Source: Candidatus Eiseniibacteriota bacterium (GTDB lineage: Bacteria > Orphanbacterota > Orphanbacteria > Orphanbacterales > Orphanbacteraceae). Taken from it: a DNA stretch of 64,000 bases. The notes under the pieces were generated by a model, which made no database searches, was not told the DNA's origin, and saw nothing but the letters and a program-made list of their open reading frames with translations. Shown piece by piece: positions 4,284 to 16,290 of the stretch. Both the position numbers and the translations under genes were made by a program. The DNA lies in contig JAJCZU010000004.1 in the NCBI GenBank assembly GCA_029262235.1, positions 620,001-684,000 on the forward strand. Direction: 5' to 3'. The number at the start of each line of letters is the position of its first letter. The first letter of the stretch is position 1.

Positions 4284-7268
4284 ATGCCGTCCAGTTCGCG
4301 CGTTCGCGGGTCCGCGATCGTTCTCGCTGCGATTTTCTGTCTGTTCTCGCCGCTCTCTTATGCTGCATTTGCCGCGGGAGAAGCCGAGCCGCTGCTTTCG
4401 AACGTGCGGCAGCTTACGTACGAGGGGGAGCGGGCAGGGGAAGGATACTTTTCCAAAGACGGGAAGCATCTCGTCTTTCAGAGCGAACGGCTGCATGGCA
4501 ACCCGTTCTATCAGATCTACTCGCTCGACCTCGAAACCGGGGATGCGGTGCGCGTATCGCCCGGCATCGGGAAAACGACGTGCGCATTCTATCGCCCCGG
4601 CACGAACGACGTTTTGTTCGCATCAACGCATGGCGATCCCGATGCCGAAGCGAAGCAGCGCGAGGAGATCGCGTTTCGTGAGTCGGGCAAGACGCGCCGG
4701 TACAGCTGGGACTACGACGAGCACATGGATCTTTATGTCGCGGACCGCGACGGCTTCAACGTGCGGCGGCTGACCGATGCCCGCGGGTACGACGCCGAGG
4801 GCGCGTATTCACCCGACGGCAAACTCATCGTGTTCTGTTCACTTCGCGCCGCGTACTCGGCGGGGCCGGAGGGCCCTCCGGGGTGGAGTGAAGTCGACAA
4901 GATGCGTCTCGAGCAGGACCCGTCGTACTTCGGCGACCTCTATATAATGAACGCCGACGGCTCGAACGTGATGCGACTGACCGACACGCCCGGCTACGAC
5001 GGCGGGCCGTTCTTCTCGCCCGACGGCAAGCGCGTGATCTGGCGCCGCTTCGACGAGACCGGGGCGATCGCCGATATCTATTCCATGCTTACGAACGGGC
5101 AGGATGTCGTGCGACTGACGGACTTCGGCGCGATGTCGTGGGCGCCGTACTATCATCCTTCCGGCGAGTACGTGATCTTCACGGCGAACAAACACGGATT
5201 CGGCAACTTCGAACTGTTCATTGTCGACACGCCCGGCACGAAAGAGCCCGTGCGTGTGACGTTCACAGACGGCTTCGACGGCCTCCCCGTATTCGACCCG
5301 GCCGGAACGCGCCTCGCCTGGACCGCCGGACGCACGAGCGACGGCAAGTCGCAGCTCTTTCTCGCGAACTGGGACCATGACCGGGCGCTGGCCATGATTG
5401 CGAGAGCGCCCGCGCGCGGGAAGGGGGCGACTCCCTCCATCGATCGGGCGGAACTGCACACCAAGGTCGAATATCTCGCGTCAGACGAACTCGAAGGCCG
5501 CATGACCGGCTCGCCGGGCGCGCGCGACGCGGGCGACTATCTTGCAAGCGCGCTCGAGGCGATCGGCTTCGAACCGCTGCCCGGACTCGATGGGTATCGG
5601 CAGCGCTTCACGTACTCGTCCGGCGTCAGCGTGAGCCCCCGAAGCGCGCTCACGATCGCCATGGGCGAGGAATCGCGCGCGCTCGCTCTCGACCACGACT
5701 TCCGCCCGGTTTCGTTCAGCGAAAACGGCACGGCCGAAGGGGACGTCGTCTTCGCGGGCTACGGGCTCAGCGTTCCGGGTGGACTCGGAGAAGGGTACGA
5801 CTCCTACCGCGACCTCGACGTGCAGGACAAAATCGTTCTCGTACTCCGCGCGATTCCGGACGAAGTGGAAACGGAGCGCCGCCTGACGCTGAACCGCTAC
5901 GCCGGCCTCCGCTACAAGGCGCTCGCGGCGCGTGAAGCAGGCGCGAAGGCGCTGCTCGTCGTGAACGGTCCGTCGACGCAGGGGCTTTCGGATCTCGTGA
6001 CGTTGCGATCGGAAGTCAACGCGTCGACGAGCGGAATCGCGATCGCGTCGCTGCGGACGGAGATCGCGGAGAAGATGCTGCAGGCAGCCGGTTACGACCT
6101 GGCGGAAGTACAGGCGGAACTCGATCTCGAGAACCCTCATTTCGAGGGGAGCTTCGCGCTGGAAGGCGTAACCGCAAAGCTGCACGTCGAACTCGAGCGC
6201 GAACGGCAGGGCGACGACAATATCGTGGCGTGGCTTCCGGCTTCTCGAGACGGGAACGCGGCAGCCTCCTCCGGCGATGGCGATGGCGATGGCGATGGCG
6301 ATGGCGACGCCGGTAGCGCAAACAAGCCCGAGTACATCGTTCTCGGGGCTCATTACGATCACATCGGGCGCGGCGAGGTCGGCTCGCTCGCGCGTGAAGG
6401 CGAGCACGGCGAGATTCATAACGGCGCGGACGACAATGCGTCGGGCACGGCGGTCGTTCTCGAACTCGCGGAAGCGCTGGCGGCCAGGCGTGCGGAATCG
6501 CCCGATGACTTCAAGCGCGGCATCATCGTCGCGTTCTGGTCAGGCGAAGAACTCGGCCTCGTGGGCAGCGCGTTCTACGTCGAAAATCCGCCCGTCCCGA
6601 ACGATCAGGTCGCGGCGTACCTGAACTTCGATATGGTGGGGCGCCTGCGCGAAAACCAGCTCACGCTGCAGGGGCTCGGCTCGTCTTCGATCTGGAAGGG
6701 GCTTGCGGAAAAGAAAAACGTGGCCGCCGGTTTCCAGCTGAGCCTGCAGGACGATCCGTACCTGCCGACGGACGCGACATCGTTCTATACGCACGAAGTT
6801 CCGATCGTTCACTTCTTCACAGGGAGCCACGAAGAGTACAATCGGCCTGTCGACGACACGGAGACATTGAACTACGAAGGGATGGAGCGGATCGCGAAGT
6901 TCGCACTCGCGATGACCGAGGACCTTGTGCGCCGCGAAGACCGCCCCGACTATGCGAAAGTAGAGCGAAGCGATCGCGGCGGGGGGCGCACGGCGAATCT
7001 GCGCGCGTATCTCGGCACGATTCCGAACTACACGCAGGAAGGTGTGGACGGCGTCAAGCTCGATGCGGTCCGTCCCGGCGCGCCGGCGGATGACGCGGGC
7101 CTCAAGGGGGGCGATATCATCGTCGAACTCGCGGGCCAGCGCATCGCGAACATCTACGACTATACCTATGCGATCGAAGCGCTCAAGATCGGCGAAGAAA
7201 CGCCGGTTGCCGTGATGCGCGACGACGTGCGCATCGAACTGACCATCACACCAGGGAGTCGCGAATGA
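4284..7268 (+). CDS. Secreted TolB/M28/PDZ metallopeptidase
   Basis: Exported zinc aminopeptidase-like protein, 994 aa. Order: signal peptide (1-30); PD40/TolB-type beta-propeller (about 35-370, repeated YSPDGKLIVF-like strands); PA-like insert (about 430-620); M28 peptidase (about 640-870) with metal ligands in LGAHYDH (His690), GADDNASG (Asp716), SGEELG (Glu755/756) and VHFFTG; C-terminal PDZ domain (about 900-994). A Gly-Asp run (about residues 664-675) is encoded by a hexanucleotide repeat. AAGGAG precedes the ATG at a good distance. The stop overlaps the start of the next gene by 4 nt, so the two are probably co-translated. Confidence 0.93.
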   Translation: MPSSSRVRGSAIVLAAIFCLFSPLSYAAFAAGEAEPLLSNVRQLTYEGERAGEGYFSKDGKHLVFQSERLHGNPFYQIYSLDLETGDAVRVSPGIGKTTCAFYRPGTNDVLFASTHGDPDAEAKQREEIAFRESGKTRRYSWDYDEHMDLYVADRDGFNVRRLTDARGYDAEGAYSPDGKLIVFCSLRAAYSAGPEGPPGWSEVDKMRLEQDPSYFGDLYIMNADGSNVMRLTDTPGYDGGPFFSPDGKRVIWRRFDETGAIADIYSMLTNGQDVVRLTDFGAMSWAPYYHPSGEYVIFTANKHGFGNFELFIVDTPGTKEPVRVTFTDGFDGLPVFDPAGTRLAWTAGRTSDGKSQLFLANWDHDRALAMIARAPARGKGATPSIDRAELHTKVEYLASDELEGRMTGSPGARDAGDYLASALEAIGFEPLPGLDGYRQRFTYSSGVSVSPRSALTIAMGEESRALALDHDFRPVSFSENGTAEGDVVFAGYGLSVPGGLGEGYDSYRDLDVQDKIVLVLRAIPDEVETERRLTLNRYAGLRYKALAAREAGAKALLVVNGPSTQGLSDLVTLRSEVNASTSGIAIASLRTEIAEKMLQAAGYDLAEVQAELDLENPHFEGSFALEGVTAKLHVELERERQGDDNIVAWLPASRDGNAAASSGDGDGDGDGDGDAGSANKPEYIVLGAHYDHIGRGEVGSLAREGEHGEIHNGADDNASGTAVVLELAEALAARRAESPDDFKRGIIVAFWSGEELGLVGSAFYVENPPVPNDQVAAYLNFDMVGRLRENQLTLQGLGSSSIWKGLAEKKNVAAGFQLSLQDDPYLPTDATSFYTHEVPIVHFFTGSHEEYNRPVDDTETLNYEGMERIAKFALAMTEDLVRREDRPDYAKVERSDRGGGRTANLRAYLGTIPNYTQEGVDGVKLDAVRPGAPADDAGLKGGDIIVELAGQRIANIYDYTYAIEALKIGEETPVAVMRDDVRIELTITPGSRE
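6273..6308 (+). repeat. In-frame GGCGAT hexanucleotide tandem repeat
   Basis: Five exact copies of GGCGAT followed by GGCGAC, encoding alternating Gly-Asp in the linker just before the M28 domain. Changes in copy number would keep the frame. Confidence 0.9.
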
Positions 7269-8533
7269 GCTTGAACTCTGACACGAAACCGCACGCCGCT
7301 TCAATCGACTGGGAACGTATACGGAGCGCGTTTCCGGCGCTCACGGGCGACACCGTATTCATGGAGAACGCGGGGGGATCGCAGGTGCCGGCTATCGTGG
7401 CCGACGCTATCCGCGATTACATGCTGGGAAGCTATGTGCAGCTCGGTGCGGGGTACGCGCTTTCGCAGAAAGCGACAGATGTCGTCGCGCGCGCACACGC
7501 GTTTGCGAACGTGCTCATGAACGGCGACGCTTCGAAGAGCGAGGTCGTGCTCGGCCCGTCGTCCACGGTGCTCGTGCGCACGCTGGCCGAGGCATACGGC
7601 AGAACGCTCCCGCCCGGGAGCGAAATCGTGATCGCCGAGAACGGGCACGAGTCGAACATCGGGCCCTGGGTCGACCTCGAAGCAAGAGGCATGCAGGTGC
7701 GCTGGTGGAGGGCCGATCCCGAGTACAAGGCATGCACGATCGAGGGGCTGCGCCAGGTGATCAGCGGGAAGACCTCTATTGTCGCATTCCCGCACGTATC
7801 CAATCTGCTGGGCGAAGTCGTCGACGTGCCTGCGATCACGCAGATCGCGCACGAAGCGGGCGCGCGCGTCGTGGTTGACGGGGTCGCGTTCGCGCCGCAT
7901 CGCGCCATCGATGTAGCCGCCTGGAACGTCGACTGGTATTTCTACTCCGCCTATAAAGTATACGGCCCGCACATGGGCGCCCTTTACGGCACGCACGACG
8001 CGTTCGCCGGGCTTCCCGGCCCGAACCACTTCTTTATCGAAAACGATGACATTCCGTACAAGTTCGAACCGGGTGGAGTTTCGCACGAAGGGTGCGCGGG
8101 TCTTCTCGCGCTCGGTCAGTATCTTCGCTTTCTCTGCGGCGCGTCGCTGGAAGACGAAACGCCCTGCACCCGCGGCGATATCGAAGAGGCGTTCGAGGTG
8201 ATGACAGCATGCGAGACTGCGGCCCAGGAGCCCCTGATGGAGTACCTGCTCGGGCGTGACGACCTCACAATCATCGGGCCGGAGCACGCGAACCCGAGCC
8301 GCGTACCAACAATCAGCTTCCGCCATCGTACAATTGCTTCGCAGGAGGTCGCGAGCCGCCTCGACCCGACCGGCATTGCGATCCGGGCGGGGCACATGTA
8401 CGCGTACCGACTCTGCAAGGCTCTTTCGATTCCCGTCAAGGACGGCGTGGTTCGAATCAGCCTTGTCCACTACAACACGCCGGCCGAAGTCGCGCGCCTC
8501 ATCGCCGCACTCGACAAAGCTCTCGTGGACTGA
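7265..8533 (+). CDS. Class V aminotransferase / cysteine desulfurase-like protein
   Basis: PLP-dependent fold-type I enzyme of the cysteine desulfurase/SufS-like class, 422 aa. The pyridoxal lysine is Lys231 in SAYKVYGPHMG, and VVVDGVAFAPH supplies the Asp that pairs with the cofactor. ENAGGSQVP near residue 35 is the usual N-terminal motif. I do not see a SufS/IscS-type catalytic Cys loop, and no iron-sulfur assembly gene is adjacent, so the substrate is open. It starts inside the stop of the M28 peptidase gene (ATGA overlap) and is followed 92 nt later by an M24 peptidase, suggesting a role in peptide or amino acid breakdown. Confidence 0.88.
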   Translation: MSLNSDTKPHAASIDWERIRSAFPALTGDTVFMENAGGSQVPAIVADAIRDYMLGSYVQLGAGYALSQKATDVVARAHAFANVLMNGDASKSEVVLGPSSTVLVRTLAEAYGRTLPPGSEIVIAENGHESNIGPWVDLEARGMQVRWWRADPEYKACTIEGLRQVISGKTSIVAFPHVSNLLGEVVDVPAITQIAHEAGARVVVDGVAFAPHRAIDVAAWNVDWYFYSAYKVYGPHMGALYGTHDAFAGLPGPNHFFIENDDIPYKFEPGGVSHEGCAGLLALGQYLRFLCGASLEDETPCTRGDIEEAFEVMTACETAAQEPLMEYLLGRDDLTIIGPEHANPSRVPTISFRHRTIASQEVASRLDPTGIAIRAGHMYAYRLCKALSIPVKDGVVRISLVHYNTPAEVARLIAALDKALVD

Positions 8534-9852: not shown

Positions 9853-10791
9853 CTACTTCTTTCCGTCGAGAACGTCGACCCCGCGTTCCGCCCACCAGCC
9901 GATGATATGCTTCCAGATCTCTTCGGCCGTTTCCGCATATACGAACAGGTCCCGGTCTTCGGGCGCAATCAATCCTTCACGCGCGAGGTGCTCGGCGCTG
10001 AACGTGCCGCGCCAGAAGTCCTCGCCCACGAGCACGACCGGAAGCGGTTCCATCGTGCGAGTCTGTACGAGAGTAAGCGCCTCGAACAGTTCGTCCAGCG
10101 TGCCGTAGCCGCCGGGAAAAGCCACCATCGCTTTCGCCCTCTTCAAAAAGTGCATCTTGCGCAGCGCGAAATACCTGAACTGAAAACAGAGCCCGGGCGT
10201 GATGAACGAGTTCGGGTACTGCTCCATCGGAAGCGTGATGTTGAGCCCCACGGATTTTGCGCCGACATCGCTCGCGCCGCGGTTTCCCGCTTCCATGATC
10301 CCCGGCCCCCCACCCGTCACGACAACGTAGTTGCACTGCCCGTCGAGCTGGCACGTCGTACTCACGAGCCGCGCAAAGTCGCGCGCTACGTCATAGTACT
10401 TCGCCTTCTTGATGACGCGTTTCGCCACCTCCAGCGCGAACTGGCACTCCTTGTCGTTCGGCCGTTCCGCAAGCGCGGCTTCGGCCTTCTCGAGTTTCTC
10501 CTCTGCGCATGCGGCTTCAATCACACGCGTTCCGCCGAACACAACCACAGTCGATTCGATTTCGTGCTCCTGAAGCAGCGTCTCGGGTTTGCGATATTCG
10601 AGCAGCAGGCGCGCGCCCCACATTTCGTCGCGCTGCAGATTCGCGAGATCCTCGTGTGCGGGAATATAGGACGGATCTTCCATGATGGCCCGTACGCGCG
10701 CCTCCGCCTCCGAATCACCCGGCGGAATGTGCAACTCTTCGACCGGCAGCGGTTCGGTGCGGCCTCCGTGCGGGGGTTTCTTCCTGCTCAT
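9853..10791 (-). CDS. LOG family protein (lysine decarboxylase-like)
   Basis: LOG-type Rossmann protein, 312 aa, with the family motifs VVTGGGPGIMEAGNRGA (about 157-173) and PGGYGTLDE (226-234). Related proteins release cytokinin-type bases or nucleotides (phosphoribohydrolase), but many members are only annotated by similarity. The N-terminal 80 residues are charged and longer than in minimal LOG proteins. GAAGGAG precedes the ATG. The gene is divergent from the ArsC-like selenoprotein gene, with 88 nt between the starts, and convergent with the M24 peptidase. Confidence 0.9.
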   Translation of the reverse strand: MSRKKPPHGGRTEPLPVEELHIPPGDSEAEARVRAIMEDPSYIPAHEDLANLQRDEMWGARLLLEYRKPETLLQEHEIESTVVVFGGTRVIEAACAEEKLEKAEAALAERPNDKECQFALEVAKRVIKKAKYYDVARDFARLVSTTCQLDGQCNYVVVTGGGPGIMEAGNRGASDVGAKSVGLNITLPMEQYPNSFITPGLCFQFRYFALRKMHFLKRAKAMVAFPGGYGTLDELFEALTLVQTRTMEPLPVVLVGEDFWRGTFSAEHLAREGLIAPEDRDLFVYAETAEEIWKHIIGWWAERGVDVLDGKK

Positions 10792-10817: not shown

Positions 10818-10846
10818 TTGCAACACCCGTTCGGGTTGACTATCAT
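10818..10846 (+). promoter_or_regulatory. Sigma70-type promoter of the ArsC-like selenoprotein
   Basis: TTGCAA at 10818-10823, a 17-nt spacer, and TATCAT at 10841-10846. This is the best -35/-10 pair I found in the window. The predicted leader is about 27 nt, with GGGGAGA before the ATG at 10880. Confidence 0.55.
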
Positions 10847-10879
10847 CACCCTATCTTCACTCAAACGGGGAGAAATGTC

Positions 10880-11221
10880 ATGGCGAAGAAAGTGGACTGG
10901 TACTACCACCGCAACGGCTGAACGTCCTGCGGCAAGTCCTCCAAGTTTATGGAGGGAAGTGATATCGAGGCGAAAGAAGTCGTGCCCGCCAGCAGAAAGC
11001 TCGGGAAATCGGACGCGGAATCGCTGTTCAAGAACGCCTCGCGCGTGATCGTCTGCAAGGGCAAAGCAGTCGAGGAGTGGAAGCCGAACGGGAAAGTGAA
11101 TGCGGACGGCGTCGCGAAAATGCTGGGGCCCACGGGCAACCTGCGGGCGCCGACGATTCGCAAGGGGAAGACGGTCGTTGTGGGCTTTAACGACGACGTG
11201 TTCGAAGAAGTTTTCGGTTAG
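10880..11221 (+). CDS. ArsC-family protein, predicted selenoprotein (TGA = Sec14)
   Basis: Small ArsC/Spx-like thioredoxin-fold protein, 113 residues if TGA at 10919-10921 is read as selenocysteine. Before it is MAKKVDWYYHRNG; after it, in the same frame, TSCGKSSKF and the rest of the domain to TAG at 11219-11221. The TGA sits exactly where ArsC-like proteins have the first Cys of CxxC, giving U-T-S-C with Cys17 as partner. Both halves look like one protein: LGKSDAESLF, VIVCKGK, and LRAPTIRKGKTVVVGFND carrying the cis-Pro. A 6-bp hairpin follows the TGA at SECIS distance. GGGGAGA and a sigma70-like promoter precede the ATG. Neighbouring genes use TGA as a normal stop, so the genetic code is not altered. 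The alternative is a pseudogene with a nonsense mutation, made unlikely by the position and the hairpin. Confidence 0.85.
10938..10955 (+). promoter_or_regulatory. Predicted bacterial SECIS hairpin
   Basis: CCTCCA (10938-10943) pairs perfectly with TGGAGG (10950-10955) around the loop AGTTTA. The loop has G at its second position and starts about 23 nt after the TGA, both matching bacterial SECIS elements bound by SelB. A U-G pair can extend the stem by one step. It lies inside the coding sequence. Confidence 0.7.
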
Positions 11222-12807
11222 CGCGCCGGGCGCGCCACACTGTGGTCGTGTCCGAAACGATCCGCGAATTCCTCGTCGTTCAGAAACGAGAGGAAGTTCA
11301 GGTAGGCGTCGCCGCCGAGGCGCACACTGCGCCAGCGGCCCACGCTGCCTGCGGGGAGCGGGCGCGCGGTGACTCCGGGGTCAGGATAGACGAGCAGATT
11401 GACCGCGTCGAAGATCTCTACCCCGCGCTGCACCAGGTATTCGACGGGCGCTCGCTTTTCATGCGCGATCATGCCGCGCGCGCCGAGTTTCATGTGAGCC
11501 ACGCGTTCGTCATTGATCCCGTGGAAATCGACGGTTTCCCACTTCGTGTAATAGGGGACGGCGCCGGCTCCGATAACGCAGATCACCGCGTCCTCCGGCA
11601 GCACACCCCGTTCAATGTTCTCCCGCAGAAGCAGTCCTTCGCGAATCCGCCGTTCGGCATACTGTTTCGCCACTCCCAGATTCGCGACGCCCGTGTTTTC
11701 GCGTGAGGTCTCGCCCCGCACCGTTCCGAACAGAGTCGTGCTGAACAGGAGAAGGGCGGCGACCCCGGCCGCTCCCGTCGCGAAGCGCGCCGGCAACGCT
11801 TCGGCGGCCACGGCGATTCCCCGCAATATCAGCCAGTAGGCATAGGGAAACAGGAAGACGAGAAACCGGAACTCGAAATGATCGCCGCCGATGTAGAACA
11901 GATAGGCGCCGTACGCGAGCACGAAGACGGTGTAGATCACGGCGCGCGCGGATCGCACCAGAAGCGCCGGGAGAAGCAGGAACGGCAGAAACCACCCGGC
12001 CATATAATCCGCATGAAACAGGCGGAAGTACTGCATCGACTGCGCGGGATAGAACCCGTTTACTTTCGCGTAGAACGTGTTCGGCAGCCAGTAACCGTAG
12101 TACGAATGGCGCCAGAGAAAGTGCGCCCCGACAAGCACGATCAGCGGCGCGCACCAGAGCGCGAAAGATAGAAGCGTTCGTTGTCTGCGCACGATGTCGA
12201 CGAGAAAGACAACGCCGAGGAGCGCCGCGAACAGAATGCCGTCGGGCCGTGTCAATGCCGCTGCGGCGAGAAGCAGTGATGAAGCGAACACGAACGCGCC
12301 CCCGTTTCGGCGCTCTGCGAGAAAGCGCTCGGTTGCCAGATAGATCAGGAGGGCGAACGGCATCGTGGCAAGTCCGCCCGTGTTCCACGCGGCGAAACTG
12401 CGGCTCGCCGCAAGCGTGGGCGCGAGAAAGAGCAGCGCGATCAGCAGGGGGGAGAGGCGCGTGTCTTCGCGCGCGCCATCGTGCGCGTCTTCGCTTTCGA
12501 CGTCGAACATCCGACGCGCAACGAGCACGAGAAGAGCGGCGCCGCACGCCACCCCGATCGCGTTCGACCAGAACTCGGGCGACAGCCCCGCGCGCATCAC
12601 GACGCTCATCAGCACGACCCAGAGAAAATTCGTGTAGCCCTCGACACGCTCGCCCGGATTCCAGACGAGACCCATGCCGTTCGCGAGATGTTCCGCATAT
12701 CGAAAGCTGATGAACGCGTCGTCACAGAGGAAGAAGAAGCGCCGGACGAACACGAAGAAGAGTGCGGCGGTCAGCACGAGAGAGAGGGCAGGAAGAATGC
12801 GCTTCAA
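11218..12807 (-). CDS. Polytopic membrane protein, GT-C glycosyltransferase-like
   Basis: Integral membrane protein of 529 aa with about ten hydrophobic segments and a C-terminal soluble part (about 400-529). The N-terminal region contains CDDAFISFRYAEHLANGMG and NPGERVEGYTNFLWV, the acidic first-loop pattern of lipid-linked GT-C glycosyltransferases such as arabinosyltransferase-like (AftB-like) proteins. The donor and acceptor are unknown. The start is TTG, with GGGAGA five nt before it. Its stop shares the bases TTAG with the stop of the convergent selenoprotein gene. The small membrane protein gene lies 25 nt upstream on the same strand. Confidence 0.75.
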   Translation of the reverse strand: MKRILPALSLVLTAALFFVFVRRFFFLCDDAFISFRYAEHLANGMGLVWNPGERVEGYTNFLWVVLMSVVMRAGLSPEFWSNAIGVACGAALLVLVARRMFDVESEDAHDGAREDTRLSPLLIALLFLAPTLAASRSFAAWNTGGLATMPFALLIYLATERFLAERRNGGAFVFASSLLLAAAALTRPDGILFAALLGVVFLVDIVRRQRTLLSFALWCAPLIVLVGAHFLWRHSYYGYWLPNTFYAKVNGFYPAQSMQYFRLFHADYMAGWFLPFLLLPALLVRSARAVIYTVFVLAYGAYLFYIGGDHFEFRFLVFLFPYAYWLILRGIAVAAEALPARFATGAAGVAALLLFSTTLFGTVRGETSRENTGVANLGVAKQYAERRIREGLLLRENIERGVLPEDAVICVIGAGAVPYYTKWETVDFHGINDERVAHMKLGARGMIAHEKRAPVEYLVQRGVEIFDAVNLLVYPDPGVTARPLPAGSVGRWRSVRLGGDAYLNFLSFLNDEEFADRFGHDHSVARPAR

Positions 12808-15666: not shown

Positions 15667-15723
15667 AACTCGGAAGAGTAACACGGTATGAAGCGCCACC
15701 CTATGGGAATCGAGAGGATCGTA

Positions 15724-16290
15724 ATGAAGGGAATGCTGTACGGGATGGGGATCTTTCTGGCCTGCGCGCCGCTGGAGGCGTCGGACTGGGAGGGGCTCAA
15801 GCGCGAGATCCGCGAGAAGTTCCCGCGCGTGGACCAGGTCGAGACGGCCACGCTCGCGGAGTGGCTGGCCGACGAGGAGCGGGAGCCGCCGCTTCTTCTC
15901 GATGCCCGCGCGGAGAGCGAGTTTGCCGTCAGCCATCTTCCCGGCGCCGTCCGGGCACCCGATCTGAAGGCCGCGACGCGCGCGCTCGGTCCGCCGCCTG
16001 TTCGTGCGCCTGCGTCCGGGGCAGCGGCCTCCACCGACACTGCTGACTCCGGCGCCGCGCGTCCGATCATCGTCTACTGCTCGGTCGGGTATCGTTCGGC
16101 CCGGCTGGCCGATCAGCTGCGGGAGCGGGGGTACGAGGAAGTCTACAATCTCGAGGGCTCGCTCTTCGAATGGGCGAACGAAGGACACGCGGTGGTGCGA
16201 GGCGACTCGGTCGTGACGGACGTGCATCCTTACGATCGCGACTGGGGCCGCTTTCTCGACGCGCGCTTCTGGCCTAAGGAGTGGAAGTAG
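15724..16290 (+). CDS. Periplasmic rhodanese-like protein
   Basis: Single-domain rhodanese with a signal peptide, 188 aa. The active-site loop is VYCSVGYRSARLAD with Cys119, so it is probably competent for sulfur transfer, and LLDARAESEFAVSHLPGAV is the first rhodanese motif. The ATG at 15724 is preferred because GAGAGG lies 7 nt upstream; an ATG at 15688 is also in frame. It is divergent from the MBL lipoprotein gene, and its 3' end overlaps the convergent kinase gene by 17 nt. Confidence 0.85.
   Translation: MKGMLYGMGIFLACAPLEASDWEGLKREIREKFPRVDQVETATLAEWLADEEREPPLLLDARAESEFAVSHLPGAVRAPDLKAATRALGPPPVRAPASGAAASTDTADSGAARPIIVYCSVGYRSARLADQLRERGYEEVYNLEGSLFEWANEGHAVVRGDSVVTDVHPYDRDWGRFLDARFWPKEWK

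Follow-up and report, generated by a model that had tools for sequence, protein, structure and literature searches.

The window (the whole 64,000-nt stretch of DNA that was analysed) contains a predicted selenoprotein gene. The features recognized at this locus are as follows:

10818-10846, plus strand: sigma-70-like promoter match (TTGCAA-17-TATCAT), weak evidence
10867-10872, plus strand: GGGGAG, a Shine-Dalgarno-like sequence located 7 nt 5' of the ATG, with AAGGAG at the matching place in the same-genus relative
10880-11221, plus strand: predicted selenoprotein gene, ATG to TAG, 113 aa including Sec, family ArsC_rel_Se_1 / NF041106 (from the translation, the NCBIfam score and relatives)
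10919-10921, plus strand: in-frame UGA, predicted selenocysteine residue 14, position 1 of UxxC
10928-10930, plus strand: TGC, Cys17, the putative resolving cysteine of U-T-S-C (from the translation)
10937-10956, plus strand: predicted bacterial SECIS hairpin, 7 bp, 6-nt loop AGUUUA, G10945 at loop position 2, 22 nt after the UGA (from folds, conservation and compensatory changes)
11144-11152, plus strand: R89-A90-P91, within the cis-Pro segment L-R-[AS]-P that the family conserves (no variation at R89 or P91; predicted to be cis on the basis of the family fold)

The sequence-only reading had proposed that the frame continues through the TGA without a shift, and all of its coordinates proved correct: between the ATG at 10880 and the TAG at 11219-11221 the TGA is the sole interruption. 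Translation with UGA as Sec yields MAKKVDWYYHRNG-U-TSC-GKSSKFMEGSDIEAKEVV...GPTGNLRAPTIRKGKTVVVGFNDDVFEEVFG (113 residues), in which the TGA occupies the first Cys position of the active-site motif, again as proposed. The expectation that standard gene calling would miss or truncate the gene was also borne out, since the plain ORF list contained just a 90-aa fragment starting at ATG 10949. Residues invariant in the family alignment include W7, R11, G13, U14, G61, G83, G86, R89, P91 and G102, and Cys17 is nearly invariant. One relative from Krumholzibacteriia (L039:3170-3514) reads U-T-S-S, i.e. Ser takes the place of the resolving Cys, and retains both the UGA and the hairpin.

Both flanking genes are on the minus strand: a LOG-like gene (9853-10791) diverges from the selenoprotein gene and a membrane glycosyltransferase-like gene (11218-12807; weak matches only) converges on it, so that the selenoprotein gene appears to form a transcription unit of its own. 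A search of its surroundings for an ars operon or a conserved neighbour detected neither, and the neighbours vary between lineages. Two further genes lie less than 5 kb from it, with no link shown: a cysteine-desulfurase-like gene (7265-8533, plus strand), which scores over the TIGR01976 cut-off, and a gene with a rhodanese domain (15688-16290, plus strand).

A contig scan of other genomes identified 17 relatives belonging to Pseudomonadales, Deltaproteobacteria/Myxococcales, Phycisphaerae and Krumholzibacteriia, and including one Gemmatimonadetes MAG. All 17 carry TGA at the matching codon. The same UGA is shared by a same-genus MAG (93% protein identity) and 16 more distant loci, which excludes its origin by chance or error; in particular, the presence of the codon in the near relative dismisses the point sequencing error that had been considered at the outset. 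Comparison with the same-genus copy revealed 0, 0 and 1 differences at codon positions 1, 2 and 3 before the TGA, and 3, 3 and 32 after it. Elsewhere in the window TGA is an ordinary stop, ending 51 of the 81 long stop-to-stop frames (both strands, not only genes).

It could still be argued that the UGA is a sequencing error, a pseudogene mutation or a true stop, and that translation begins anew at ATG 10949, from which the 90-aa frame is indeed open. However, this frame is devoid of the active site, and its ATG lies inside the hairpin, in the loop and the first bases of the 3' arm. Moreover, the UGA and the N-terminal residues are conserved across phyla, substitutions on both sides of the TGA follow a third-position pattern, and the SECIS element covaries (see below). 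We consider this explanation extremely improbable.

The distribution of the codon was also analysed in a broad survey of 386 genomes, in which 17 genomes scored above the NF041106 cut-off, 16 of them with one TGA and one (in G141) with Cys. The phylum of G141 contributed 80 copies above the cut-off (69 with TGA and 11 open). In the copies read, the UGA was always found at this site and the open copies had Cys codons (the open copy L103 was left out). Homologues carry UGA or Cys at residue 14, so that the alignment check suggested by the sequence-only reading was passed. In the tree, the Cys form L042 nests among Sec forms, though at no well-defined branch, a placement consistent with a Sec-to-Cys change.

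The hairpin proposed at 10938-10955 (a perfect 6-bp stem with G at loop position 2, about 23 nt after the TGA) was found, its loop (10944-10949) lying at a distance of 22 nt. The six perfect pairs are extended by U10937-G10956, which adds a seventh. The isolated 25-mer folds with -9.9 kcal/mol (z = -2.98; 0 of 200 shuffles as low). In longer windows around the hairpin the MFE was not beyond that of shuffles, and the argument therefore rests on conservation and not on energy. The bacterial SECIS model (PMC13188914) comprises (i) a loop of 3-9 nt and an upper stem of 4-16 bp, (ii) G in loop position 1 or 2, (iii) a UGA-loop distance of 16-37 nt, and (iv) an MFE of -7.5 kcal/mol or lower. Loop and stem size, the loop G, the spacing and the MFE of the window hairpin all fall within these limits.

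In the 17 sequences whose register agrees with that of the window hairpin, pairing is kept in 95% of pair cells, four of the seven pairs have changed on both sides, and the covariation score was reached by none of 500 shuffles, a count that overstates independence because the sequences are related. In a second set (n = 14) the register is shifted by one position and the loop has 3 nt; here 88% of cells are paired and double changes occur in six of the eight pairs. The loop G is the third base of a codon (AAG, GAG, GGG, AGG or GCG) and was present in 33 of 33 sequences, versus about 16 expected from codon use, although the probability is not literal in this set of related sequences. No qualifying hairpin was found in the Cys form above the cut-off in the 386-genome survey (L042), and the helix in this register was present in none of the seven Cys sequences checked.

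The sequence-only reading implied that the host has selenocysteine machinery, and a search of its genome identified selA, selB, selC and selD. The tRNA-Sec (anticodon TCA) scored 70.7 bits against a cut-off of 47, while selA, selB and selD each exceeded their curated cut-offs. One host selD carries its own UGA, in the context ...RTCG-U-AAK, and at least two selenoproteins are therefore expected from this host. There are two host SelD genes above the cut-off (L018:1501-2424 and L019:1501-2457). One has an in-frame UGA where SelD usually carries Sec; the other is placed inside an open frame of 1018 residues and is possibly a fusion.

In the 386-genome survey (host excluded), selA was detected in 14 and tRNA-Sec in 13 of the 15 UGA genomes, and both were absent from the one Cys genome above the cut-off. 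In the second phylum (that of G141), selA was found in 24 of 25 UGA genomes versus 3 of 11 Cys genomes. The relative G001 contains the UGA, and neither selA nor tRNA-Sec was found in its genome (82% complete, 830 contigs); in G031, tRNA-Sec was not found with stricter filters. The family can serve as a clean test set provided by nature: the SECIS element and the machinery accompany the Sec forms, whereas Cys forms mostly have neither.

Two situations among the selA-positive genomes with Cys forms deserve separate mention. G429 contains two family copies (L103 and L104), one with UGA and the other with an open frame, which makes it a candidate intermediate of Sec/Cys exchange. In G519 and G652 (L088 and L113) Cys forms occur with selA still in the genome; loss of the machinery is therefore not a prerequisite for replacement by Cys.

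With the frame, the family, the machinery of the host and the conservation of the RNA element demonstrated, we conclude, with a probability of about 0.94, that the gene encodes a selenoprotein with SECIS-directed Sec14. As to the insertion step, we infer that SelB with Sec-tRNA(Sec) would bind the hairpin located 22 nt past the UGA, so that 10919-10921 would be decoded as Sec14.

The usual hairpin is absent from about twenty UGA-containing relatives in the phylum of G141 (e.g. L081, L090, L097, L104, L110, L114). In this lineage 45% of cells in the proximal register are paired, which is no better than slid controls. A different element was recognized there:

L081, L089-L091, L096-L102, L104-L112 and L114, columns 47-67 (counting starts at the U of UGA): distal 8-bp hairpin with G in the loop (from covariation)

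The distal loop, C-G-[UG]-G-A, begins 51 nt past the UGA and has G at position 2 in all 20 sequences. In 18 distinct sequences 95% of cells are paired and seven of the eight pairs show double changes; none of 500 shuffles reached the score (again among related sequences). RNAalifold predicted this helix alone. Both members of the pair at columns 48-66 are third codon positions, and C-G (8) alternates there with G-C (6), a pattern left unexplained by constraint on the protein. A helix scan for a common lower helix joining the UGA and the distal hairpin found none.

In the window gene and most relatives the proximal SECIS lies 22-23 nt after the UGA. We regard the distal hairpin as a probable SECIS that has been relocated, and lean towards the view that it would function well outside the accepted 16-37 nt, the position of the SECIS not being fixed in this family. 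The 2026 review (PMC13188914) states that some putative SECIS elements fail the model. If the distal reading is true, SelB or the ribosome of these bacteria tolerates a long spacer; if the hairpin works, the published spacing rule is too narrow and finders using it miss genes. This SECIS-like hairpin is more novel than the gene itself.

The window protein matched NF041106 ('ArsC family (seleno)protein') with 105 bits against a cut-off of 85, residues 5-108 aligning with profile positions 1-107, and the first position of its UxxC motif holds the conserved TGA-encoded residue 14, followed by T-S-C. In contrast, it scored 14.2 bits with PF03960 (ArsC), below the gathering score of 24, and TIGR00014 was not among its NCBIfam matches. 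A profile built from 21 members ranked Spx and Spx-like ArsC proteins highest of the solved structures (E about 2e-8), followed by YffB and glutaredoxins. The AlphaFold model (pLDDT 90, pTM 0.81) shows a confident Trx/ArsC fold, and Foldseek found Spx/YffB-type structures closest in the PDB, with scores so modest (best E 0.002, TM about 0.55) that a detailed comparison of active sites is weak. As a name for the fold and the family, 'ArsC-family' is correct. The earlier description of the protein as ArsC-type stands to this extent, with the L-R-[AS]-P segment in place; it does not extend to Pfam ArsC, and among solved structures those of the Spx/YffB type are nearest.

The proximity to Spx suggests that the protein could be an Spx/MgsR-type RNA polymerase-binding regulator, in which the Sec-Cys pair would act as a redox switch. 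Spx is the closest solved structure by both profile and fold, and the N-terminal UxxC aligns to its CxxC. However, the TIGR01617 (Spx/MgsR) score was 17.5 bits against a curated cut-off of 75.05, the window protein reads RAP at the position where Spx has RRP, and no polymerase-contact residue was seen as conserved. Such a regulator is, in our opinion, very unlikely.

The family name suggests another activity, i.e. that of a selenium-dependent arsenate reductase in which Sec14 would attack arsenate like Cys12 of R773-type ArsC. The name is used for such proteins in the Sargasso Sea and GOS papers (PMC1088965, PMC2398784), and R89 is invariant beside the cis-Pro. Nevertheless, the sub-gathering Pfam ArsC score, together with the Spx/YffB type of the closest solved relatives, means that arsenate reduction should not be inferred; Pfam ArsC, moreover, had no match in the host genome at E 0.001. 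The genome also already carries a thioredoxin-type ArsC elsewhere:

L068:1009-2646 (G000 C4, about 1217.2-1218.8 kb): ArsC-ACR3 fusion, about 0.59 Mb from the selenoprotein gene on the same contig

The fusion is a single frame of 545 aa with both domains matched, the ArsC part scoring under its own curated cut-off, as expected of a fused domain, and it is located downstream of ArsR-like and aquaporin-like genes (read from translations). The name 'arsenate reductase' is doubtful because of this separate fusion and because the neighbours of the selenoprotein gene, which lies outside any ars operon, are not conserved across lineages. A selenium-dependent arsenate reductase is improbable, and the main role of the protein is unlikely to be the reduction of arsenate.

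We favour instead a thiol oxidoreductase that contains Sec and belongs, within the thioredoxin fold, to the ArsC/Spx/YffB branch. A general thiol/selenol reductase role is probable for it, with selenol/thiol reduction via Sec14 and Cys17 as the most likely activity. We also infer the redox chemistry and the substrate: the substrate would be oxidised, probably a disulfide or the like, and would be attacked by the Sec14 selenol, after which Cys17 would resolve the selenenyl-sulfide, by analogy with UxxC thioredoxin/glutaredoxin-type reductases.

The window gene is a further member of an already catalogued selenoprotein family, to which it adds a lineage, and is a clear example of truncation by ordinary callers. 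The available text of PMC1088965, PMC2398784 and PMC13188914 claims no experimental function for the family. The closest counterpart is the 'Arsenate reductase-like protein, NF041106, UxxC' listed in the 2026 review (PMC13188914), which cites PMC2398784: the full-length match above the cut-off, the UxxC motif and the length are shared, and the window protein differs in its new host lineage and in nothing of substance. 'Arsenate reductase 2' (cd03032, UxxC), for which the 2008 GOS study (PMC2398784) reports 42 Sec sequences, shares the motif and fold class, the likeness being by description and not by GOS sequences. The UxxS 'arsenate reductase' selenoproteins (TIGR00014 type) of the Sargasso Sea (PMC1088965) share the ArsC superfamily and Sec at the first active-site position, whereas the motif of the window protein ends in Cys, not Ser, and TIGR00014 is unmatched. 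Finally, Spx and YffB (PDB 1z3e, 7f75, 1rw1), which both profile and fold rank nearest among solved structures, have an active site with Cys at the corresponding position; the window protein differs from them in having Sec for Cys, a shorter middle region and a score far under the Spx cut-off.
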